A DNA stretch of 64,000 nt, from positions 1,234,001 to 1,298,000 of the forward strand of contig NZ_JALQCS010000001.1 in NCBI RefSeq assembly GCF_023277115.1, in the 5' to 3' direction. Positions 5,255 through 62,260 of this stretch are shown here, in pieces. The notes below the pieces were generated by a model. It was not told where the DNA came from. It saw only the letters and a list, made by a program, of their open reading frames with translations, and did no database searches. Each line of letters begins with the position of its first letter. The stretch's first letter is position 1. The DNA comes from Acidithiobacillus acidisediminis. Its GTDB lineage: Bacteria; Pseudomonadota; Gammaproteobacteria; Acidithiobacillales; Acidithiobacillaceae. Position numbers and translations under genes: made by a program.

Positions 5255-6253
5255 TCACCCTCCGGCGACGGTTAGTGGCTTGGGTTCTGGATACAGATGG
5301 GTTTTTCCCTCTTTCCAGACAGCGGCCTGATTCTTTTGGTGGTAAATCACCATCCAGCCTTGTAGCTGAGCCTGGTGTGCCTGAATCCAGGCGGGTGCAT
5401 TGAATTCAGGAGAGATCTTGTACTCGATCGTGGCAAGAGCCATGAACGGGTACTTTGGATCCTCGTTGTTTACCACATAGAACGGATCATCGGGTTTCTT
5501 CCAGGGCTGAACCGTCCAGTTCAGCCAATAGGGTGCAATCTTGGGTTTGTCAGCGATGTTCTGCCAATTCGGGAGCCAAACCAGCATGGCGTCTGCTCCA
5601 TCGTTCCATAGCCCGTCCTTGATTCGGTAGGTGGATCCATCAAAGGTTCCACGGTCCCAGCCAACCAAGTGCAGGTCGGAGAGTTCAACAGACTTTCTGG
5701 CCAAATGGACGACCTGCAAGTACGAGTTATGCTTCACCTTGTAGTATCTGGCAATCCACAATATCTGGCCGTCATTGAACCGCTTGGCAAGATGATCGTA
5801 ATCTCCTGGGACCGGATTGATCTTGGGCGCGTTATTCCCAGATCCGAGGCTAAATAACATCCCAACGCCGAACAACGCTGGAGATCCGGCGCCTATCAGC
5901 GCGTTTTCTCCGGCCCACATCCCAAGGCTGGACCACTGTTTCATCGCATCCTGCACGGTTGCATTGACCGACACGTTCGTCGATTGATGATGTTCCTGCA
6001 TGTCATAGGCATACAATGCTGCCGGCCCAGAAAAGCGCAAGTCAAAGACAGGAGCACAGGCGTTCAGGCTATCTTTCGGGCAATCGTGGGCCGTGACAGT
6101 TCCGTGGTACAAAATCTTCTTGAGCTTTGCGGACTCAATAGGGGTCTTTGAGTGATACTGTACCGGACCTAGCTGCTCCGTAGACATGCAGCCGGACAAT
6201 CCCGGCAAAATAGCCAAGGACAGTGCCACAAATAAAATTCTTTTTCGATTCAT
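5255..6253 (-). CDS. Predicted outer or inner membrane lipoprotein, function unknown
   Basis: The 332-residue protein begins with a basic n-region (MNRKR), a hydrophobic stretch and the lipobox LSGC (Cys about residue 22), so it should be lipid-modified and face the periplasm. The mature part is rich in Trp and Tyr and includes a short hydrophobic patch around residues 110-135 (AGENALIGAGSPALFGVGML). No named family is recognised. It is probably the first gene of a short operon with the 47-residue exported peptide that follows after one base. Base composition is intermediate between the AT-rich gene to the left and the core genome. Confidence 0.7.
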   Translation of the reverse strand: MNRKRILFVALSLAILPGLSGCMSTEQLGPVQYHSKTPIESAKLKKILYHGTVTAHDCPKDSLNACAPVFDLRFSGPAALYAYDMQEHHQSTNVSVNATVQDAMKQWSSLGMWAGENALIGAGSPALFGVGMLFSLGSGNNAPKINPVPGDYDHLAKRFNDGQILWIARYYKVKHNSYLQVVHLARKSVELSDLHLVGWDRGTFDGSTYRIKDGLWNDGADAMLVWLPNWQNIADKPKIAPYWLNWTVQPWKKPDDPFYVVNNEDPKYPFMALATIEYKISPEFNAPAWIQAHQAQLQGWMVIYHQKNQAAVWKEGKTHLYPEPKPLTVAGG

Positions 6254-6561
6254 GATTCTTGCTCATTCCCATTATGGCGGCGTACTCGTAGCCATAGTCG
6301 AATCTATCGCCTCTGGTGTCAAGTTAGAGTTTGTCAGGCCTGTCGGATGATCAATCTGCCCAGGGGTATACATGGCCGTTCCAGCGGTATTTCAACCAGC
6401 GATATTGGGTTGGTCAATCTTGATTTATGACACGATAATTCGACCAAGAATGGCTATGGCAAAAAGACGATTATATTCAAGCTAGGTTTGTAAAGTTCTG
6501 CTTTCTAATCCAAACAACTCTTACCAGAGAGATCAACTAAAATCGAAACATCCGGTCTGTC
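6254..6561. other. Intergenic region, promoter of the lipoprotein gene expected
   Basis: There is no gene-like reading frame. It lies upstream of the lipoprotein gene and downstream of the Type ISP enzyme, both on the minus strand. I see no clear terminator, repeat or RNA structure. Confidence 0.5.
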
Positions 6562-9500
6562 CTAGACAGTCTGCAAATCTCCGCTGGCTGAAACTGATAC
6601 TGAAGGTGGTGGCAGATGCTTCACAACCTGCATGGTTTCCACACTTACCCGCACTATCCGCTTGATTAGATCCACGATATAGCGCGGGTTCCCGATCTCT
6701 TCCAGCATGAGATTGGGATCGTTGACGATTCCGCTGGCTTTGTCCACGCGCACGGAAAAGCGCTCCATGATCCATTCCAGGGCGCTTTTGCCGTTCACTA
6801 TGTAGCGGTAGGCTTCTTCTGGAATGCCAGCGAGGGTCAGTGCGTCACTATAGACGATCCGGTCCCGCTCGCCCTTCTTGGGAAAGTGGATCTTCTCTAC
6901 CGTGTAATCACCGTCTTTCCCCTTGGCCCAGACTTCTTCCAACGGCCACGGCTCTGCCTGCTCATAGCCCAAGTGCAGATCCATGAGCGTCTTGCCCGCG
7001 GTGCTGAAGGCCCAGAAGTCCGGTGTAAACGGAATCCGGGGGATCATCTTTTTCAGGTCATTGGCATACTGTTCCCGGTACCCCGGCGAGTGCAGCAGGC
7101 CATAGACGTAGGTGAATAGGTCCAGCTTTGTTATGGACTGGTCCTGATAGTGCTCCTGGAAGGTCTGTAGCGCCCAATCGGTGATTGCGTCGCGACGAAT
7201 GTATCCGTCGGCGTCTGGCTCACCCAAATCTACGGGCGCATCTTCGTCAAAAAGGCCATGCTGCCCCTTCTGAACGGGCTGAAGTCGCTTGCGAGCTTCC
7301 TCTACCGTTTCGTACCAGTAGAGGGGGAAGCATTGGACGTTTGCAAATAACTGATATTCAGGGATAAATTTGATGGAAAGGCAAGAAAAATCCTTGCTTA
7401 CTCCCGTTCCAGTCAAGGAAATAACTACGTTTTCCTGCCGTTCGTTGGGAAAAATTCGGGGAATCTGGAGAACTCTCTCGTTGAAAGAGCGATTGAAATA
7501 TAACCATTGCCGACTAAATGGACGATACATTCCCATTCGCAATGAATCTTCTTCAAATACGTGACGCTTTCTGCGAGACAAATCAGTTTTAAGATTCACG
7601 GACCAACTAATCTTTTCTGGATCGTCGCAAATGATCTCTTCGACCTTTGGCCATGACACCTTCGGAAGACCATTGCATGCCTTGGTATAACGTGCCACAT
7701 CTGCATTATAGACCTCAATCATGTCCTGCATATTTTCAGCAAGCTGCGCGCGGCTTTGATTATATGCCCATGCGTCACGATTCGTAACCAAGCCTCTGGA
7801 ATAAATAGAAAATACCGCTTTTTCGGTCAGCGTTTTATCTCCCAAGGGAATGAAATCACCAAAGCTGTCACTACGTTGGCCTACCCAGTCACCCTGCTCA
7901 TTGGGCACCAGTTGTTGCCAGTCCAATCGCTGGATACTGACCGCACGCCGGAGACTGTCGAGTTTGGCTTCCCGGCTCTGGTAGTCGCCAATGTCGTGAT
8001 ACCGTAACTCACAAGGCCCTTGGTGCTGGGGATCCTTGATCAGCAACGTAATGGCAACGGGGGTGCGGGAGCCTATACCAAAAATCCCGTCCCCTTCCAT
8101 GCGGCGCTGCTCTCCTGAAGTCCTCGCATTCCCACGCAGATTGCAGACATAGATGGTGCTGTATTCACCCGTCAGGCACTTGCGCATCCCGTCCATACTG
8201 TTCGCATCAATGAATGATCCGTTGGTAACAAAGGCTACAACGCCCCGATCCCCGATCCGGTCACTGGCCCATCGCATCGCCCGGATATAGCTGTCGTACA
8301 GACTATTCACCAGTTTCGCAGAGGACTGCTTGGCGTAAGTTGTTGTAATTCGGTCATCCAACACGGGATAGTCCAAATTCTGGTTATTATCATTCTCACT
8401 TTTCTGCCCAGATGAGTAGGGCGGATTCCCCACAATCACCCGAATGGGTAGCTTCTTTTGCCGCTCCACTCGTTCGGAATTGCGCCGGAAATACTCACTG
8501 TCCAACAGGTTGCCATGCTCCGGTTCTCCCATCTGAAAGGTGTCCGTGAGCACTATGCCGTCAAAGGGCTGGTATTGCCCGGTTCGCGCATGGTAGGCGC
8601 TTTCAATGTTGATTGCGGCAATGTAGTAGGCCAGTAGTACCAGTTCATTCGCGTGGATCTCTCCCGCGTACTTGCGGGCCAGGTTTTCTTGATTGATCAG
8701 GTCCGTTTGCAGCAGGCGGCTGATAAAGGTGCCAGTGCCGGTGAAGGGGTCGAGAATCTGCACATCATCACTGTTCAGGTCTTCGTCAAAATGCTCTTGT
8801 AGAGCCACCTTGACGCTGTGGAGAATGAAGTCCACCACCTCGACGGGGGTGTAAACAATTCCCAGGCGGTCAGCAATGCGCGGAAAGGCCGCCTTGAAAA
8901 AGGTGTCGTACAAATTGCGGATCAGGTCCTGGCGGGACTCGTCACTCTTGGCGAGCGATACCCGCTTTGCCACATCCTTGTAGAAACGATCCAGCTTGTC
9001 GGCCTCGCTGTCTACCTCGTGCTTGTCCAGCACCTCAAGGATCCGCTGCATGGCCTGAGATACCGGATTCTCCTGCGAAAAGGACTGGTCCCCAAAGAGT
9101 GCGTCGAAAATGGGCCGCGTCAGCAGGTGCTGGGCCAGCATGTCGACCGCCTCCGACTCCGAAATGCCGCTATTCAGGTTCTTGCGAATGGCCTTGAGGA
9201 AGGCATTGAACGCTGTCCGCCCCTCACGTTTCTCGATCAGCAGCTCAATCCGCAAAGTGATCTGCTCGGCAATCTTGGCAACATCCTGCGCCCAACTGGC
9301 CCAATACTCCGTATCGCCCAGGTGTTTGGGTACCACGGCATAGAGCGAATCGCGGATCTGGTCCACGGGCAGAGCGGGCAGCTCAATCTCCCCCTGTCCG
9401 TCGCCCAGGTTGCTGTCTCGTTTTTTGCGCTCCTTACGCGAGCCGCCGCTGCCGTCCATTATCGTCATACGCTTTTGGTATTCGGACTTGTCTACCAGTC

Positions 9501-49775: not shown

Positions 49776-49877
49776 CTACTTGAAGCGTTTGCGGGTGTAG
49801 AGATACATGATCCCGACAATGCCCAGATACAAAACAGGCAAGAAAAAGATCAGGTCTTCCAAGTCGGTGTAGTGCAT
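49776..49877 (-). CDS. 33-residue membrane peptide at the end of the cyd operon
   Basis: ATG at 49877 is preceded by AGGAGG with seven bases between. The 33-residue product has an acidic N-terminus (MHYTDLEDL), one hydrophobic helix (IFFLPVLYLGIVGIMYLY) and a basic tail (TRKRFK), so it should span the membrane once with its tail in the cytoplasm. Nine bases separate it from the CydX-like gene. It matches no CydX motif. It may be an extra small subunit of the bd oxidase, comparable in kind to CydH of E. coli, but this is inference. Confidence 0.65.
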   Translation of the reverse strand: MHYTDLEDLIFFLPVLYLGIVGIMYLYTRKRFK

Positions 49878-49886
49878 GGTCGCCTC

Positions 49887-50090
49887 CTAGCGCGATGAGA
49901 TGCCTTTCTGATCCAGCTCTTCGTCCTGGCGGTCGAACATGGCGGCGCCAGCAGCAGAGATCAGCACGATCATGGTGGTACCCACGAGCCAGGCGAAGTA
50001 CCAGGGGCCATAGTCACCGGTAATCACTGCCAGAAAGAGGGCAAAGGCGATGAGCACCGCGCCAACGATAAAGGTAAGAAAGCCTTTCAT
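49887..50090 (-). CDS. cydX: CydX-like subunit with an extra N-terminal helix
   Basis: CydX is a small one-helix subunit that stabilises the haems of cytochrome bd-I. Here residues about 29-60 (GPWYFAWLVGTTMIVLISAAGAAMF) follow the CydX pattern WYFAWxLG. The 67-residue protein is about twice the usual length because a first hydrophobic helix (FLTFIVGAVLIAFALFLAVI) precedes it. The C-terminal tail is charged. It lies 14 bases after cydB, as CydX does elsewhere. Confidence 0.8.
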   Translation of the reverse strand: MKGFLTFIVGAVLIAFALFLAVITGDYGPWYFAWLVGTTMIVLISAAGAAMFDRQDEELDQKGISSR

Positions 50091-50104: not shown

Positions 50105-51238
50105 TCAGTAGGCGTGATCGTCATGGGCAGAAGGTGCCTTGACCTTGCCGCGCATGACGTTGAAGCACCAGGTGGTGTAAGCCAGGATGGTGGGGACGAA
50201 GATCGCTGTGAAGATGGTCATCCAGATCAGGTTGTACTGGCTGCCGGTACCATTCCAGATGGTAATGCTCTGGGCCGGGTTATCGCTGGAAGGCATCAGG
50301 AAGGGGAACATCGATACCCCCACGGTGCCGAGAATCCCAATCCAGGCGAGGGCGCCCAACCACCAGGCGAGGACAGCCTTTTTGGCGCGCATGGCGAACG
50401 ATCCCGCGAGCATGGCGATAATGCCGATCAACGGAACGACCCAGAGGATAGGCGTGCTGTGGTAGTTGTTCAACCAAGCGCCTATCTCCCGCGTGACATT
50501 CTGCGCCGCCGAGATATTGGCTGGCGCACCCGGAGTAGCGTCGTGCAGTGCATAGCCGGTCATGGTGCTGATCCAGACCCCACCAATGATGAAGAGCGCG
50601 ACGCTGACCAGCCCCGCAATGGAGCCGATATTCTTCGCGCGGCTGTAGATCGGGTCCACGCCGCGAATCATCAGCATGGCCGACCCTTGATATAGGGCCA
50701 TGCTGAGCGCCAGCACGCCACACAGGATGGCAAAGGGATTGAGCAGATACCAAATAAAGGATTCCGTCTGGTAGTACTGCCCGTCCCAGCCAAAGTGGAA
50801 GCCTACCCCTTCGAGAATATTCCCGATGGCTGCGCCGTAAATGATCATGGGCAAGGCACCGGAAATCAGAAACACCCAATCCCAGGTTGCGCGCCACTTC
50901 TGCGTCGGTACCTTGGACCGGTATTCGAAGGCCACCGGGCGCATGATCATGCTGAACAGGAGCAGAATCATGACAATGTAGAAGACGGAGAAGGATGTGG
51001 CATAGAGGCTTGGGAAAGCAGCAAAGATCGCGCCACCGCCCAGAATGAACCAGACCTGATTGCCATCCCAGTGCGGCCCGACGATGTTCAGCGCCTCACG
51101 ACGCTCGCTATCGGTCTTGCCGACAAAGCGCATCAATGCGCCTACCCCCATATCCATGCCGACCATGATGGCCAAGCCCATGAGCAAGACGCCGAGGAGC
51201 AACCACCACAACACTTTTAGAAAAACATATGCATCCAT
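50105..51238 (-). CDS. cydB: Cytochrome bd-I-type quinol oxidase subunit II
   Basis: CydB is the second large subunit of the bd oxidase and has no haem of its own. The 377 residues carry the family blocks LWWLLLGVLLMGLAIMVGMDMGVGAL, GPHWDGNQVWFILGGGAIFAAFP and RPVAFEYRSK, with about eight to nine membrane helices. It follows cydA after 45 bp, a gap containing a strong hairpin. The enzyme reduces O2 to water with quinol, with high affinity, in the inner membrane. Confidence 0.96.
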   Translation of the reverse strand: MDAYVFLKVLWWLLLGVLLMGLAIMVGMDMGVGALMRFVGKTDSERREALNIVGPHWDGNQVWFILGGGAIFAAFPSLYATSFSVFYIVMILLLFSMIMRPVAFEYRSKVPTQKWRATWDWVFLISGALPMIIYGAAIGNILEGVGFHFGWDGQYYQTESFIWYLLNPFAILCGVLALSMALYQGSAMLMIRGVDPIYSRAKNIGSIAGLVSVALFIIGGVWISTMTGYALHDATPGAPANISAAQNVTREIGAWLNNYHSTPILWVVPLIGIIAMLAGSFAMRAKKAVLAWWLGALAWIGILGTVGVSMFPFLMPSSDNPAQSITIWNGTGSQYNLIWMTIFTAIFVPTILAYTTWCFNVMRGKVKAPSAHDDHAY

Positions 51239-51283: not shown

Positions 51284-52915
51284 TCAGGATCGATCCAAGC
51301 TCGCTTTGGCAAAGGCGGGCTGTCCCGCCATGCCACCACCGGCTACGGGTTCTTCGCCATGATGGCTGTCCTGTGGCCCCAAGCGCGCGTACTTGAACAT
51401 CAGGTACAGCTCGACCGCGATGAAGGTGCTGTAGAGCAGTGCGAAGCCGATCAGTGAGAAGATCATGTAAGCGACACTATGACTGGAGGCGGACACGAAG
51501 GTGGGCAGCCAGCCGTAGACAGTCCAGGGTTGCCGCCCATTCTCGGCCGTAATCCAGCCGAATTCACAGGCAATCCAGGGTAGGGGCACGCTCCACAGGG
51601 CGATTTTGAGGAACAGGGGATGTTTCTCGATTTCGTTCTTCAGGCTGTAGTACGCAGCGAAGGCGAAGAGCACCAGCATGAAGAAGCCGGCGGCCACCAT
51701 CAGGCGGAAGGCCCAGAATTCTACCCAGACATTGGGAATCGTCGCCTTGGCCGTTTTGTCCAAGACACTGGGCAGGTTGCTGGCATTGACGTTGGCGAGA
51801 TCCTGATCCGGCGCAAATTCCTTGGCTAGAAAGCCATAACCCATGTCCTTCTCATACTGCTTGAAGGTGGCCAGGGCGGCTGTATCACTGTGGTCGGCAT
51901 TATAGGCCTTGAGGGCAATCATCGCCTTGATGCCATTCTCAACTTTAGGCTTGGCATCCTGCTCCAGTTGCTTGATCCCCGGGATGACGGTGTCCTCACT
52001 ATGTGTCAATAGGGGGGTCAACACGTAAGGGATACCAATTTCAAACAGATTTTTCTGCTCTGTGCGGCTGGGAAAGGCGATCAGATTCCAAGATGCAGAA
52101 ACGGGGTGTGGATCTGTTTGCCAGATGGCTTCCATGGCCGCCAATTTGGCTGGTTGTGCGTGGGCGTCAATATAGCCCAAGGCATCTCCCAGGGTGATCA
52201 CGCCCACGGTGGAAATCACACCAAAGATCGCTGCTAATCGAAACGAGCGCAAGGCAATATCGCGCCGCTTTTTGGTTAGCAGGTAGTAGGCCGACACGGC
52301 CATGACGAACATCGCGCCGGTCACAAAACCAGCGATGGAGGTGTGTACGAACTTCGCCTGGGCATCCGGGTTGAAGATCAGACCCACGAAGCTGGTGAAC
52401 TGCATGCGCATGGTGTTGGGATCAAAGGTGCCACCCTGCGGGTCCTGCATGAAGCCATTGGCAATCAGAATCCACAGTGCAGAAAGGTTAGAACCCAGGG
52501 CCACGAGGTAGGTAACCACGAGGTGTGCCTTGGGAGACATGCGGTCCCAGCCGAAAAACATGACGCCCACGAACGTGGATTCCATGAAGAAGGCCATGAG
52601 TCCTTCGATAGCCAGCGGAGTACCGAAGATGTCACCAACGAAGTGCGAATACATTGACCAGTTGGTGCCGAATTCGAATTCCATGGTCAGGCCGGTGGCA
52701 ACACCGAGGGCGAAGTTGATGGCGAAGAGTTTGCCCCAGAATTGGGTCATCTCCCTGTAGATTTGTTTTCCTGTCACCACATACACCGTTTCCATGGTGG
52801 CCAGGATGAAAGTGAGTCCCAGGGTGAGGGGGACGAAGAGAAAGTGATACAAGGCCGTCAACGCGAACTGCATGCGCGACAGCTCCACTACCGTCGGATT
52901 GATGAGCATATCCAT
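51284..52915 (-). CDS. cydA: Cytochrome bd-I-type quinol oxidase subunit I (long Q-loop)
   Basis: CydA carries haems b558, b595 and d. The 543-residue protein has SRMQFALTALYHFLFVPLTLG near the N-terminus with the haem b595/d-side His, EFEFGTNWSMYSHFVGDIFG and ESTFVGVMFFGW in the Glu-rich proton path. A long Q-loop spans residues about 255-400, and GRQPWTVYGWLPT and ELYLMFKYARLGP near the C-terminus match the E. coli form. It ends in a Gly-rich tail, AGGGMAGQPAFAKASLDRS. It starts 10 bases after the MBL-fold gene. Confidence 0.96.
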   Translation of the reverse strand: MDMLINPTVVELSRMQFALTALYHFLFVPLTLGLTFILATMETVYVVTGKQIYREMTQFWGKLFAINFALGVATGLTMEFEFGTNWSMYSHFVGDIFGTPLAIEGLMAFFMESTFVGVMFFGWDRMSPKAHLVVTYLVALGSNLSALWILIANGFMQDPQGGTFDPNTMRMQFTSFVGLIFNPDAQAKFVHTSIAGFVTGAMFVMAVSAYYLLTKKRRDIALRSFRLAAIFGVISTVGVITLGDALGYIDAHAQPAKLAAMEAIWQTDPHPVSASWNLIAFPSRTEQKNLFEIGIPYVLTPLLTHSEDTVIPGIKQLEQDAKPKVENGIKAMIALKAYNADHSDTAALATFKQYEKDMGYGFLAKEFAPDQDLANVNASNLPSVLDKTAKATIPNVWVEFWAFRLMVAAGFFMLVLFAFAAYYSLKNEIEKHPLFLKIALWSVPLPWIACEFGWITAENGRQPWTVYGWLPTFVSASSHSVAYMIFSLIGFALLYSTFIAVELYLMFKYARLGPQDSHHGEEPVAGGGMAGQPAFAKASLDRS

Positions 52916-52925
52916 GAACTACCTC

Positions 52926-53633
52926 CTACAGAAACGCCGGCAGATTTTGCCCCGGCACATAACGATGCAGATCCTTTTCTGCCCGTCCTTTTTTCACTGG
53001 TTTTGCGGTGGGTTGTAATAACTGGTTGTAACGATGCAGCAGGCCGGTGGAACCTCCGCCGGAGTTGCTTTGTACCAGGCGACGATACTCCTCAATGCTG
53101 CTGAGACGGCGGCCCCGATATTCCCGTCCAGGGTAGAGCAGGGTTTCTTCCGCAAAGCGGTCGAGGAGGGTGTTCATTCTGGCGAGTAGGTCGCCCCGCG
53201 CTTTGCCGTGCAGCTTGGGAGGTAAACCGCGAACGAGCAGAGTATTCCCGGTGAAGAGACGATCGTTCCAGGCATACATCAGGGCACAGGCGGTGAGGCC
53301 TGGGGTGTGAAACACGCGCAGGGATTCTTCGCCGAAATAGAGGATGTCTTCATCGCGAATGCGCATGTCAACGCTGGCTGCGCTGATGCTTTCGTGGGCA
53401 GCCAGTCTGGCGCCCCAGTGCTCGCGCAAAATCCCGGCGGCCTTCTCATGGCTGGCGTTCCAGTGTGTCACGAGCAGCAGTCGCAACTGCAGTCCGCGGC
53501 GCCTCAAGAAATCCTCCACTGCGCTCAGCTGGCTATCGACAACATCGATCGCTACCGCCTCGCGGGTGATGGAGTCGCCGAGGACATAGGCGAGGGATCC
53601 CTCTTTTTCGGAACAGATCTGACGGAAAATCAT
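52926..53633 (-). CDS. ETHE1-like MBL-fold protein with a degenerate metal site
   Basis: The 235-residue protein starts MIFRQICSEKEGSLAYVLGD, an ETHE1-type persulfide dioxygenase N-terminus. Key motifs are changed. The HxHxDH motif reads HWNASH (57-62); the later PGHT His is Leu113 in HTPGLTAC; FTGD has become FTGN (Asn130); and the late PAHDY reads PGREY. Of the three iron ligands of ETHE1 only the first His remains. It is therefore unlikely to be an active dioxygenase and may be a sensor or scaffold. It is the first gene of the cyd operon, 33 bp after a σ54 promoter. An in-frame ATG at 53678 lies upstream of the expected transcript start. Confidence 0.82.
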   Translation of the reverse strand: MIFRQICSEKEGSLAYVLGDSITREAVAIDVVDSQLSAVEDFLRRRGLQLRLLLVTHWNASHEKAAGILREHWGARLAAHESISAASVDMRIRDEDILYFGEESLRVFHTPGLTACALMYAWNDRLFTGNTLLVRGLPPKLHGKARGDLLARMNTLLDRFAEETLLYPGREYRGRRLSSIEEYRRLVQSNSGGGSTGLLHRYNQLLQPTAKPVKKGRAEKDLHRYVPGQNLPAFL

Positions 53634-53666: not shown

Positions 53667-53683
53667 AGCAAATGCCATGCCAA
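53667..53683 (-). promoter_or_regulatory. σ54 (RpoN) promoter of the MBL-cydABX operon
   Basis: On the minus strand TTGGCATGGCATTTGCT matches the σ54 consensus (TGGCAYG-N4-TTGCW), with GG and GC separated by ten bases. Transcription would begin near 53656, about 23 bases before the MBL gene ATG at 53633. Confidence 0.82.
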
Positions 53684-53775: not shown

Positions 53776-53791
53776 CTGCCAAATGTGGCAG
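53776..53791. promoter_or_regulatory. Inverted repeat, likely σ54 activator binding site
   Basis: CTGCCA, spacer AATG, TGGCAG is perfect, and a further TGGCAG half-site follows at 53800-53805. It lies about 100 bp upstream of the σ54 promoter, the usual enhancer distance, and also just upstream of the regulator's own promoter. Confidence 0.65.
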
Positions 53792-53850: not shown

Positions 53851-55167
53851 ATGCTCAAGCAATTGCGTCCAGAGTTGACCTCATTACTCGACTGCTTTTC
53901 TTTGCCTGCGGTGCTTCTTGAGCTAGATCACACGGTGTTGGCGGCAAATCAGGCCTATCGCAAGCAATTTGGCGATGGCAAACCATTGCAGGGGCGTCAT
54001 TGCGACGAGATTCTGCAGAGTGCGGGCATGCCCTGCGGTGGCGCTGGAAACGAATGTCCGCTGGACCGCTGTCTGCAGAGTGGCAGTGTCCAACATGTGC
54101 TTCATCTGCATGATGGACGCGCCTTGCAGATTGATCTATTCCCCATCCGCAATTCCAGCGGCAAGCCGGAGTATTTTCTCGAATTGCTTGCTCCCATGCC
54201 AAATCAGGACACTCCCCCGCCAGGGCTGGTTGGCCAAACACCCCTGATGCAGCAGTTGGAACATCTGCTGCACCGCGCCGCCCCGAGCGAAGTGCCGGTC
54301 TTGCTACTCGGTGAGTCCGGCACCGGCAAGGAGCTTGCGGCGGCGATGATCCATCGCGCCAGCCGGCGAGCCCAGGGTCCTTTTGTGGTGCTGGATTGTT
54401 CCGGTCTCTCAGAAACCCTTTTTGAAAGTGAGCTTTTTGGCCATGAGCGAGGCGCCTTTACCGGCGCGCAAAGCCGGAAAATCGGCCTTGCCGAGGCGGC
54501 GAATGGCGGCACGCTCTTTCTCGATGAGGTTGGCGATATTCCGCTGCCCTTGCAGGTGAAGCTCCTGCGCCTGCTGGAAACGGGCACGTTTCGGCGGGTT
54601 GGTGGGATCGAAGCCATCCGCTCCGAATTTCGCCTGATCTCGGCCACGCATCGGAATCTGGAAGCCATGGTGCGGGAAGAGAAATTCCGTCAGGATCTCT
54701 ACTATCGAATCAGTGCCTTTCCCATCACCCTGCCGTCCCTGCGCGAGCGGCGGGAAGATATTCCGCAGATTGCGGGGTATCTGCTGCAACGCCTGGGCTA
54801 TCCCCGTTTACGCCTGAGTCCCGAGGCATTGCAGGCACTTCTGGCGCATGACTATCCAGGCAATGTGCGGGAGTTGCGCAATATTCTGAACCGCGCTGCC
54901 TTACTGGCCGACGATGTCTGGATTTTGCCGGAACATCTGCCCAGCAATCTGCGCTCTGCACCGGAACCAGAGTCTGCGGCTGGCAGCCCGGGTTTCGCTA
55001 ACTTGGTGCCGCTGGCAGAAATGGAAGAAAGGTACTTGCGCTGGGCGCGCCAGATCCATCTGGGTGATCGCCGCAGTCTGGCGCACTCCCTGGGTATCAG
55101 CGAACGCACCTTGTACCGGAAACTGGAGAGTATCAGCGGCCTCCCGGAACAGGTCGAGCATGCCTAA
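53851..55167 (+). CDS. PAS-AAA+ σ54-dependent transcriptional activator
   Basis: The 438 residues form three domains. A PAS-like sensor (about 10-110) carries a Cys cluster, C51, C62, C69 and C74 ([19 protein letters not shown]). The AAA+ domain (about 128-350) has GESGTGKE, the σ54-contacting GAFTGA, and [14 protein letters not shown] Fis-type HTH ends the protein ([20 protein letters not shown]). There is no receiver domain, so it probably senses a signal directly, perhaps redox or sulfur state through the cysteines. It is divergent from the MBL-cyd operon, which has a σ54 promoter, and is the likely activator. Confidence 0.93.
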
Positions 55168-59677: not shown

Positions 59678-60766
59678 CTAATGACTCTCATAGCCTGCCA
59701 TATGGGTGATCCGATGACGGAACACCCAGATCTGATAGGCGTTGTACATGATCATGACTGGCACAAACCCGGTCATGAACAGGGTGAGGATGGCTAGATC
59801 GTTGGCCGGATTGCCGCCGGCGCTGATGGTCCAGGTGTTGGGTACGATGTAGGGAAAGTTCGTGGCCCACATACCACCCCACATCAGGACGACGATCGCG
59901 CCACACCACAGCAGGGCAGGGAAATCCCGGTGCGCAGCATGGGCACTCATCATCTTGTATGCCGCTATGAGAATGGCCACGAGCAGGATGAGCCAGCCAA
60001 ACCAGCCATTCCCGGTCCACTTGGCAGCGTCGGGCATAATGGCGTAGGACCAAATCAACGTGATCACGACGGCCGCCAGCGCCAGAAAGGAAAAAGTGGT
60101 CGCCCAGGCATGGGCCTTTTTATAAATGGGATCCTCCTGCTTGAAGCGGGCACAGAGGTAGAGTGTGCCGGCGAGGCCACCTGCAATTACGGCTGCGATG
60201 CCCGTCCAGATGCTGAAGGCACTAATAAAGCTCACGGCGCTGCCGGAAAAATGCGGGATCGTATTGGCAAATGGATCCGCGGCGTTGGTAATTCCCTGGG
60301 CATTTTCCTTGCTCATGGAAAAGCCCAGCAAGGTGGCACCCAGGGCAATGCCAGCGAAAAGGGCGGCAATCAAGCTACCCAAACCAAACATGGTACCCCA
60401 GAACTTTTTCGAGCTTTTGGCGTGGACATGGAACTCAAAGGCTACGGCGCGGGAGATGATGCCCCACAGAGCGAACATCAGGGGAATCATCAGGTAATTG
60501 AATGTGGCGCCATAGACCAAGGGAAAGGCCCCAAAAATCACCCCGCCAGCGACCACCAACCAGGTTTCATTGGCATCCCAGGTGCCGGCCATGGAGGCCA
60601 TGACCGCAGCGCGATCATTTTCCTCCTTGAGGAGCAGAGAAAACACCCCCGCCCCCAAGTCCGCACCGTCAAGGATGATGTAAATGACGAAGAACAGCCC
60701 TAATAAAATCCACCAAAAAGTGCTCAATGCACTGTGGATACGTAGTATTTGATCGAGTTGATCCAT
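59678..60766 (-). CDS. cydB: Cytochrome bd-type quinol oxidase subunit II (CIO-like)
   Basis: The 362-residue protein has FWWILLGLFFVIYIILDGADLGAGVF, GTWDANETWLVVAGGVIFGAFP and SRAVAFEFHVHAK, with about eight membrane helices, matching CydB/CioB. It is distinct from the first CydB, and the operon lacks a CydX gene. The product is the second subunit of a separate bd oxidase, probably the cyanide-insensitive type. Confidence 0.93.
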   Translation of the reverse strand: MDQLDQILRIHSALSTFWWILLGLFFVIYIILDGADLGAGVFSLLLKEENDRAAVMASMAGTWDANETWLVVAGGVIFGAFPLVYGATFNYLMIPLMFALWGIISRAVAFEFHVHAKSSKKFWGTMFGLGSLIAALFAGIALGATLLGFSMSKENAQGITNAADPFANTIPHFSGSAVSFISAFSIWTGIAAVIAGGLAGTLYLCARFKQEDPIYKKAHAWATTFSFLALAAVVITLIWSYAIMPDAAKWTGNGWFGWLILLVAILIAAYKMMSAHAAHRDFPALLWCGAIVVLMWGGMWATNFPYIVPNTWTISAGGNPANDLAILTLFMTGFVPVMIMYNAYQIWVFRHRITHMAGYESH

Positions 60767-60786
60767 TTTTTTGGTCCTCCACGAGA

Positions 60787-60804
60787 GGCAGGAGGCCTCC
60801 TGCC
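60787..60804. repeat. Intercistronic palindrome between cydA2 and cydB2
   Basis: GGCAGGAGGCCTCCTGCC is a perfect 18-bp palindrome. It is in the same place as the hairpin between cydA and cydB of the first operon, but the sequence differs. Confidence 0.6.
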
Positions 60805-60817
60805 CCCTGCCTGTTGT

Positions 60818-62260
60818 TTAGCGGCTCTTGTCGAGACTGGGTTTGGCAAAGCTCGCTTGCGCCAATCCCCCACCAGCACTGGGGTTTGCTTCACTGCCGA
60901 TCACTGGGCTGCTGAGGTCTGGGCCTTTCTTGACAATGCGGGAGAAGAAATACCAAGCACCCCCCCAGACCATGAACTCAAAGCAGATATAGCCGATGAA
61001 CCAGATCGATTCGGCTGCCACGCCCATGTGGCTGACCCCCTGCCAAGTGCGCATCAGGCCGTACACTACCCAGGGTTGCCGACCGATTTCCCGCGTCCAC
61101 CAGCCGGTCCACACCGCCAGGTAGGGCAAGAACCCGCTGAACACCATCAAGCGCAAGAAGGTGGGATGACGCCGTAGATTGTCTGCACTGAGCTGCCCGC
61201 GTAAGCGCAGCCAGTTCCCCCACAGGGCCATCAAGAAGAGAAAGAAGCCAATGCTTACCATGATGCGGAAGGCATAGAACGGCACCCAGACGTCCGGACG
61301 GTCATTGGCGGCAAACTGATCCATACCCGCCACCTTGCCATTGAGGGTGTGGGTTTCCAGTAAGCTCAAGACATGGGGAATGGTGATGGAAAAGACATTG
61401 CCATCGTTTTTGCTGTTGGGAATGGCGATCACATGCCAGCCACTGTTGACCTGACCATTGGGCAGATCGGTGTGATAGTGCCCTTCCATGGCGGCCAAAG
61501 AGGTGGGTTGATCCACTGCCACCTCGTGACCGAGTTCATCGCCAATGAAAATCTGGAGCGGGGTGATGACGATCAGCGCCAACAGGGTTGGCTTGAGCAG
61601 GGTGGTGAACAGATCCGCATGACGATTCTTGAGGATGAACCAGGCGCTGACCGCGGCAAAGAAGAACAGTGACAGCTCAATGGTTGCGATCCACATGTGG
61701 GGAAAACCAATATCAAAATTTGGGTTGAAGATGGCATTCCACCAGTTGGTCACCTGAAACAGACCGTCCTTCAGGACGATTCCTCGCGGTGACTGCATCC
61801 AACCGTTGGCAACCAGGATCCACATGGCCGAAAGGCTGGAGGAAAGTGCCACGTTGAAGGTGGAGAAGAGATGCATGCCTTTGCCGATCTTGCCCCAGCC
61901 AAAAATCATGAGGCCGATGAAGCCCGCCTCATACATGAAGGCGGTGATGGTCTCGAAGCCCAGGATGTTACCGAAAAACGGCCCAACGGCCTGGGAAAAG
62001 GGTCCGTAGAGAATGCCAAAGGCCATCTCCATGGTAACGCCGGTAGCGACACCGGCACCAAAGTTGACGATGAAGAGCTTTTCGAAAAAACGTTGCAAGC
62101 GGTACCACTTCTCGTTTCCCGAGCGTAGCCAAGCTACTTCCAAAAAGAAGAGCAGCCAGGACATGCCGATGGTCACCGGCGTCCACAGAATATGCATGGA
62201 CGTGATGAAGGCAAAGTCCAGACGGCTAAGCAGAATCGGGAGGGAGTTCTCGATGATCAT
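60818..62260 (-). CDS. cydA: Cytochrome bd-type quinol oxidase subunit I (short Q-loop, CIO-like)
   Basis: The 480-residue protein starts at the ATG at 62260 with GAGGG upstream. It has LSRLDFAFITSMHILWTPVTIG, EMAFGILYGPFSQ, YEAGFIGLMIFGW and GRQPWVVYGLMRT. The Q-loop is short compared with the first CydA (480 versus 543 residues overall), which points to the CIO branch. Its C-terminal tail, AGGGLAQASFAKPSLDKSR, resembles the tail of the first CydA. An AT-rich promoter region lies upstream. Confidence 0.93.
   Translation of the reverse strand: MIIENSLPILLSRLDFAFITSMHILWTPVTIGMSWLLFFLEVAWLRSGNEKWYRLQRFFEKLFIVNFGAGVATGVTMEMAFGILYGPFSQAVGPFFGNILGFETITAFMYEAGFIGLMIFGWGKIGKGMHLFSTFNVALSSSLSAMWILVANGWMQSPRGIVLKDGLFQVTNWWNAIFNPNFDIGFPHMWIATIELSLFFFAAVSAWFILKNRHADLFTTLLKPTLLALIVITPLQIFIGDELGHEVAVDQPTSLAAMEGHYHTDLPNGQVNSGWHVIAIPNSKNDGNVFSITIPHVLSLLETHTLNGKVAGMDQFAANDRPDVWVPFYAFRIMVSIGFFLFLMALWGNWLRLRGQLSADNLRRHPTFLRLMVFSGFLPYLAVWTGWWTREIGRQPWVVYGLMRTWQGVSHMGVAAESIWFIGYICFEFMVWGGAWYFFSRIVKKGPDLSSPVIGSEANPSAGGGLAQASFAKPSLDKSR

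Follow-up and report, generated by a model that had tools for sequence, protein, structure and literature searches.

Upstream of the genes for a cytochrome bd oxidase in Acidithiobacillus acidisediminis lies an intact gene for a protein that has the fold of persulfide dioxygenases (PDOs) of the ETHE1 type and few of their metal ligands. What does such a protein do? The name psPDO is given here to this ligand-poor PDO homologue, and "the window" means the whole stretch of DNA that was analysed, 64,000 nucleotides in length. The following features of the window are needed below.

52926..53633, minus strand: psPDO, a PDO/ETHE1-fold protein of 235 aa (translation, homology, ligand table, model)
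51284..52915, minus strand: cydA, cytochrome bd subunit I (Pfam PF01654), 10 bases past the psPDO stop
50105..51238, minus strand: cydB, cytochrome bd subunit II (Pfam PF02322)
49887..50090, minus strand: small ORF of 67 aa just 3' of cydB (Pfam YbgT_YccB at E 0.004, below cut-off)
53667..53683, minus strand: sigma-54 (-24/-12) promoter TTGGCATGGCATTTGCT, score 20/21, starting 50 bases before the ATG
53777..53790, without strand: palindrome TGCCA-N4-TGGCA, candidate upstream activator site (pattern)
53851..55167, plus strand: divergent FisR-like sigma-54 activator with PAS_4, AAA+ and a weak Fis-type HTH (Pfam)

The psPDO protein and its lost residues

The psPDO frame runs from 53633 to 52926 on the minus strand and is intact upon translation (235 aa and a stop). 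GAGAGGG lies seven bases upstream of the start at 53633, in agreement with the intact frame and good ribosome site described in the sequence-only reading of this DNA; a longer ORF from 53678 would start within the sigma-54 promoter. When psPDO was compared with solved structures by phmmer, 9rhq was matched at E 5e-32, M. xanthus ETHE1 (4ysb) at E 3e-26 and human ETHE1 (4chl) at E 9e-18. In Pfam, Lactamase_B was matched weakly (E 0.06, below cut-off). The AlphaFold2 model has the PDO fold (pLDDT 81, with low confidence at 192-197 and 207-235). Its best structural matches are PDOs, 8zbd, 5ve5, 4ysb and 4chl being among the top ones, and alignment with the six best PDO chains (VIA-align) gave Z 22.7-23.8 and rmsd 2.1-2.4 over about 186 residues. 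The ETHE1-type ancestry proposed earlier is upheld by these matches: judged by its sequence, the homology of psPDO to persulfide dioxygenases exceeds what chance would produce.

Fold, length, the N-terminal MIFRQ and the DRxFTG blocks are common to psPDO and the ETHE1/type I PDOs (AcPDO, MxPDO, hETHE1). The psPDO core is 28-32% identical to the best PDO structures, and identity reaches 40% with other bacterial PDOs. The differences were analysed in AcPDO numbering. It can be seen that, first, the iron ligands H57/H113/D130 have become H/L/N, so that one of the three is kept, as had been claimed; the strings HWNASH, PGL, FTGN and PGREY, on which that claim was built, all occur in the translation. 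Secondly, H59-D61-H62 reads N-S-H, and R139, D141, H171 and Y173 (residues of the GSH pocket and hydrogen bonding) read P, L, R and Y. Relative to ETHE1/PDO, psPDO has thus lost the iron triad, the second-sphere H59/D61, R139/D141/H171 and also P211, and has gained C116 and H109. The window protein has two cysteines, C7 and C116, and the latter lies three residues past a lost iron ligand.

A simple possibility is that psPDO still works as a persulfide dioxygenase whose ligands come from other residues. The modelled fold, which is that of PDOs, would agree with this. However, the second-sphere and GSH residues are lost too, and no conserved set of replacement ligands was seen. Iron-ligand variants of AcPDO are reported to have little or no activity left (PMC6060420, in the part available), and for an apparent orthologue of psPDO, A. 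caldus A5904_1112, the available part of PMC5584763 reports that the purified protein had no SDO activity from pH 3 to 10. That protein is described there as having 243 aa, 27.0 kDa, pI 7.09, 34% identity to SDO2 and two metal-site histidines only. The homologue L007 of genome G013 likewise has 243 aa, with 27.1 kDa and 34.8% identity to SDO2, and both keep only H113 and H118 (U. unicinctus numbering); the pI does not match, being 7.09 as printed and 8.30 as computed for L007. Furthermore, the number A5904_1112 comes next after ACAL_1110/1111, which are cydB/cydA, and the locus numbers are common to both papers (ACAL_0790 = A5904_0790; PMC3440390, in the part available). These likenesses argue strongly that A5904_1112 is the A. 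caldus orthologue of psPDO. Catalysis by psPDO is unlikely, and the idea of a dioxygenase kept alive by substitute ligands is largely refuted and has hardly any chance of being right.

Distribution, conservation and origin

Among 29 genomes of the bacterial family, an intact ligand-poor homologue was found in 24, a broken one in 2 and none in 3 (G004, G005 and G012, which are only 91, 61 and 71% complete). The psPDO of the window's group (group A) is intact in 22 of the 29, and in G011 and G026 the sole psPDO is an intact cyo-linked paralogue. One broken copy, the group-A psPDO of G017, is split by a frameshift (L066 5056-5779) with cydAB intact behind it. The other, in G014, is a remnant before cyoA (L209 about 6223-6630), which matched L050 in tblastn at E 2e-8 (best value for a control stretch, 0.2). 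In viral contigs, patterns from the window protein detected no relative.

Groups A-D are represented in the tree by 24 sequences, in which conservation of the altered residues was followed. Of these, 20 have H57, 2 have H113 and none has D130; R139 is found in 3, Y173 in 2, and D141 and H171 in none. Two of the three iron ligands are kept in L013 (also L098) and L021 (also L105), and L013, with H57, H59, H62 and H113 retained and E at 130, could still bind iron. E81, R93, E102, H109, C116 and A117 are each present in 24/24 members. C116 occurs in 0/35 PDOs, rows that had been chosen as motif-complete, and is missing from L158. An unselected control was made with the 28 best matches from the class-wide search that fall outside groups A-D: 27 of them have all catalytic positions intact, and L158 is the exception; this search covered 369 genomes with the best 30 loci examined, and the scan was seeded with a PCA-motif pattern.

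The six invariant residues might serve another enzyme, for example a metal-free sulfurtransferase working through C116, or one that holds a different metal via residues such as H57, H109, E81 and C116. The old metal-motif positions nevertheless vary widely among members, unlike a retained site, and the published dioxygenase assay of the apparent A. caldus orthologue, the one kind of activity for which a test was found in the literature, was negative (PMC5584763, in the part available). Such an enzyme seems improbable.

Isolated decay or a sequencing error in the window gene was ruled out, because orthologues carry similar losses in intact frames. psPDO is under purifying selection, with dN/dS of 0.14-0.25 versus 0.02-0.10 for cydA in the three least saturated pairs. 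Ligand-poor homologues throughout the family, this selection and the published inactivity of the apparent A. caldus orthologue (as far as the available text of that paper goes) together support the earlier description of psPDO as a conserved non-enzymatic descendant. Alternatively, psPDO might be a relic: its reading frame would be kept chiefly for translational coupling, as a leader of cydA, and the protein itself would do little. The 10-base gap between psPDO and cydA would suit a leader, as would the broken copies in G017 and G014. Against it stand the dN/dS values and the invariant residues, the frames of G024 and G027 that are intact without cydAB behind them, and the several different downstream neighbours of the paralogues, so that a relic seems very improbable.

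The origin of psPDO was examined in a tree of 65 rows, in which group A is represented by 15 of its 22 intact sequences, the PDOs by 35 rows picked as motif-complete and the SdoS-type paralogues by none. The 24 rows of groups A-D fall on one side of a branch supported at 98/96. A tree artefact through shared ligand loss was considered and rejected: after removal of the motif columns and of the long row L158, all 29 degenerate rows still stood on one side versus the 35 PDOs (96/91), with the caveat of the long branches L145 and L060. A single origin of psPDO is possible, the long branches standing in the way of proof. In the window genome, the SdoS candidates L069 and L070 are 28-32% identical to psPDO over 121-144 residues, and the ETHE1-type L061 is 38% identical over 193 residues.

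Promoter, regulator and neighbouring genes

The sequence-only reading placed psPDO in a cyd operon. Within group A this holds, as in 20 of the 22 intact loci psPDO is followed by cydA-cydB and has a divergent sigma-54 activator on its other side, and in the window AGGAGG precedes the cydA start. In the other two loci (G024 and G027) the activator is present, and thiC runs towards psPDO and ends directly at its stop; a search for cydA in all 29 family genomes gave no orthologue in G024 and a fragment on another contig in G027. The 67-aa ORF after cydB had no match in an NCBIfam search and is possibly a CydX/YbgT-like peptide; with a second one of 33 aa it occupies 49776-50090 on the minus strand, directly 3' of cydB. 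The window has a second bd-type oxidase at 59678-62248 (minus strand), whose CydA is 37% identical to the first and which adjoins, by eye, universal stress protein-like and TauE-type exporter-like genes.

The promoter score of 20/21 in the window was reached by 0/200 simple shuffles. A scan, with shuffles that preserve base composition only, took in 20 of the 22 intact loci of group A and, among the cyo-linked genes, 4 of 7. It detected a sigma-54 promoter at -47 to -56 in 20/20 cyd-linked loci, with scores of 18-20 out of 21 that <=4/200 shuffles attained. Further upstream, at -157 to -197, TGCCA-N4-TGGCA or TGTCA-N4-TGACA is present in 17 of these 20 loci and absent from L035, L042 and L046; judging from this pattern, an activator may bind there. 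The promoter is independently supported, because its counterpart was mapped in A. ferrooxidans. In strain ATCC 23270 the first gene of the cyd operon is AFE_0956, upstream of which a sigma-54 start site was mapped in addition to a sigma-70 one (PMC5506826 and its Table 3, in the parts available). The printed promoter includes ATGGCACAGAGATTGCT, which is the sigma-54 site of L040 in G019, so that AFE_0956 has the same position and the same sigma-54 promoter as the L040 psPDO. In the available parts of that paper the identity of AFE_0956 is not stated and AFE_0957 is not linked to FisR. Its cydA and cydB are reported to be more highly expressed on sulfur than on iron in A. ferrooxidans (log2 ratio Fe/S -2.0/-2.6 for cydA/cydB; PMC2754497), and in A. 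caldus cydA (ACAL_1111) was 6.4-fold higher on S0 than on tetrathionate (PMC3440390), both according to the parts available.

The divergent regulator matches PF00158 at E 4e-65 and HTH_8 at E 0.003, below the cut-off of the latter; its regulatory domain matched no solved structure below E 0.3. Its PAS domain carries the cysteines C51-C62-C69. The window regulator not counted, this motif is found in all 18 family regulators whose N-terminus is complete; a further one is interrupted by the end of its contig. The L145 regulator carries Ser in place of the middle cysteine. In Cupriavidus FisR, the third cysteine is C71. FisR is reported to have three cysteines (PMC9774590), and in that of C. pinatubonensis C53 and C64 form a tetrasulfide (PMC8614764, in the part available), with the same spacing of 11 as C51-C62. 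The function cannot be read from the cysteine triad by itself, because FisR of A. baumannii responds to sulfide yet lacks the regulatory cysteines (PMC7315123, in the part available); the spacing is a mark of Cupriavidus-type FisR only. In C. metallidurans, a homologue with 47.8% identity to the regulator lies divergently from a PDO-like gene, which has 32% identity to a PDO and matches Lactamase_B. By analogy, the window regulator may sense sulfane sulfur. A second FisR-like sigma-54 activator of the window genome (L216 5193-6539, C1:2771201-2772487; 46% identity, same cysteine spacing) has no psPDO nearby; its neighbour is a HiPIP-like gene that narrowly misses the Pfam cut-off (E 2e-4).

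In Cupriavidus and Acinetobacter, the pdo/sqr operons under FisR control share with the window a divergent sigma-54 activator, a sigma-54 promoter and a PDO-type gene. They encode an active PDO and SQR, whereas in the window a presumably dead PDO is followed by a quinol oxidase (PMC7315123, in the part available).

An orthologue of the regulator was found in 26/26 family genomes with psPDO (broken in 2 of them) and in 0/3 without it, as judged by protein search in 11 of the 29 genomes and from flanking DNA in the others. By genome, it was matched in two pieces in G002 and is cut by a contig end in G020; by locus, the match is in two pieces at L033 and takes in only the edge of the activator at L039. 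In G012 the best match is confined to the ATPase part. The regulator is the most constant partner of psPDO. In G011, G014 and G026 it stays while psPDO and cydAB are missing between it and thiC, and the cyo-linked psPDO of G011 and G026 is on a different contig. psPDO is dispensable in G014 and G017, since the regulator, and in G017 also cydAB, is kept with a broken psPDO. In Pseudoalteromonas a homologue of the regulator is divergent to cyd genes with no psPDO there. At that locus (L178 1937-4820) cydP, cyd, cydX and ybgE are divergent from the FisR-like regulator, and the annotated 2.7-kb cydB seems to cover cydA and cydB.

Linkage of psPDO is wider than cyd, and in this respect the earlier placement was too narrow. 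The homologues of group B (G009, G011, G013, G024, G025 and G026) and group D (G002) lie directly before cyoA, cyoB in 7/7 cases. For the four cyo-linked genes scanned, a sigma-54 promoter was detected before L050, L056 and L060, and group-B L052 gave none. The scan gave 0/2 for group C (L055 and L059); behind L059 (G026) lies a cluster of cytochrome c, SDR, Rieske and cytochrome b genes, and no bc1-type cluster was seen behind L055 (G027). Outside the family, relatives lie upstream of ccoN in 4/4 cases (L130, L134, L139 and L144; three Gallionellaceae and one unplaced MAG), and where the flank was covered, a regulator of the same type lies opposite with cydA beyond it (3/3). The order at L145 is regulator, psPDO, Tll0287-like protein, cydA, cydB, and at L211 (G118) it is regulator, L158, Tll0287-like protein and an SQR-III-like protein (below the cut-off of its family). 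The Tll0287-like protein (Pfam PF11845) stands right behind psPDO at both loci (L145 8560-9324, L211 5896-6471). A strict partnership with cyd was ruled out by the cyoA- and bc1-linked paralogues, the cbb3- and SQR-like-linked relatives and G024/G027. A partnership with all cyo operons was rejected as well: CyoA was matched 55 times among the family genomes, and only 8 of these matches (68-100% identity) have a psPDO (7) or its remnant (G014) before them. The other 47 are of other subfamilies (<=59% identity), and none adjoins a psPDO homologue by comparison of coordinates in the family genomes.

The main rival reading is that psPDO protects or assists the oxidase: it would dock on the cytoplasmic side and shield the complex from sulfide or persulfide, or aid its assembly or quinol supply. 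The cyd linkage in group A and the cyo linkage in groups B and D would fit such an accessory, as would the joint absence of psPDO and cydAB between regulator and thiC in G011, G014 and G026. However, G024 and G027 keep an intact psPDO without cydAB at the locus, and the 47 CyoA of other subfamilies do without an adjoining psPDO homologue. Moreover, the complexes encoded beside psPDO (bd, bo3, cbb3, bc1, SQR-like) have no structural kinship, which makes it unlikely that a single binding surface would serve them all. An accessory of the oxidase is rather unlikely.

Proposed role of psPDO

The regulator and the promoter type recur, whereas the complexes next to psPDO differ in structure from case to case; for this reason a non-catalytic role in the response to sulfane sulfur is favoured. 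The job of psPDO is now probably non-enzymatic and in the sulfur response, most likely that of a partner handling sulfane sulfur in a FisR-like response. Stated in full, the preferred reading is that psPDO is a pseudoenzyme, selected for after it lost its iron-binding, GSH-binding and catalytic residues, in which C116 buffers or accepts sulfane sulfur and which tunes the FisR-like regulator or passes the sulfur on; we hold this tentatively, at slightly under an even chance. psPDO would be made as the first protein of operons with sigma-54 promoters, under the control of a FisR-like cysteine-triad activator that may respond to sulfane sulfur. The respiratory complex produced along with it, here the bd quinol oxidase, would let respiration run on or under reduced sulfur. 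C116, gained in the old active-site loop, may accept or buffer sulfane sulfur without catalysis, and psPDO might thereby tune the regulator, through a contact that we infer, or hand the sulfur on. Sensing of persulfide, which had been suggested earlier, is less likely through the old pocket: since the GSH-binding residues are lost, direct sensing of GSSH by the old site is disfavoured, and GSSH is not an obvious ligand.

A bolder possibility, which we regard as unlikely though worth considering, is that the psPDO family is a new kind of sulfur relay or anti-activator. Made from an operon that sulfane sulfur would induce, and with a cysteine next to the former iron site, it would report sulfane sulfur to the FisR-like regulator or limit it, and so determine whether bacteria that oxidise sulfur and iron use bd, bo3 or cbb3 as terminal oxidase.

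No description of the psPDO family was found in the open-licence literature, subscription papers lying outside the search. The A. caldus work concerned one protein of one strain, described there as not co-localised with sulfur genes, and the available part of it names no family, cyd operon or regulator (PMC5584763). Two separate published notes, on an inactive SDO homologue of A. caldus and on a gene, given no description, that opens the cyd operon of A. ferrooxidans, both known to us from parts of the papers, are joined here as one pseudoenzyme family. Gene surveys that score psPDO as a sulfur dioxygenase could overcount the enzyme. The family is conserved and tied to sulfur-induced respiration in bioleaching bacteria, and it bears on how the level of sulfur is coupled to the choice of oxidase.
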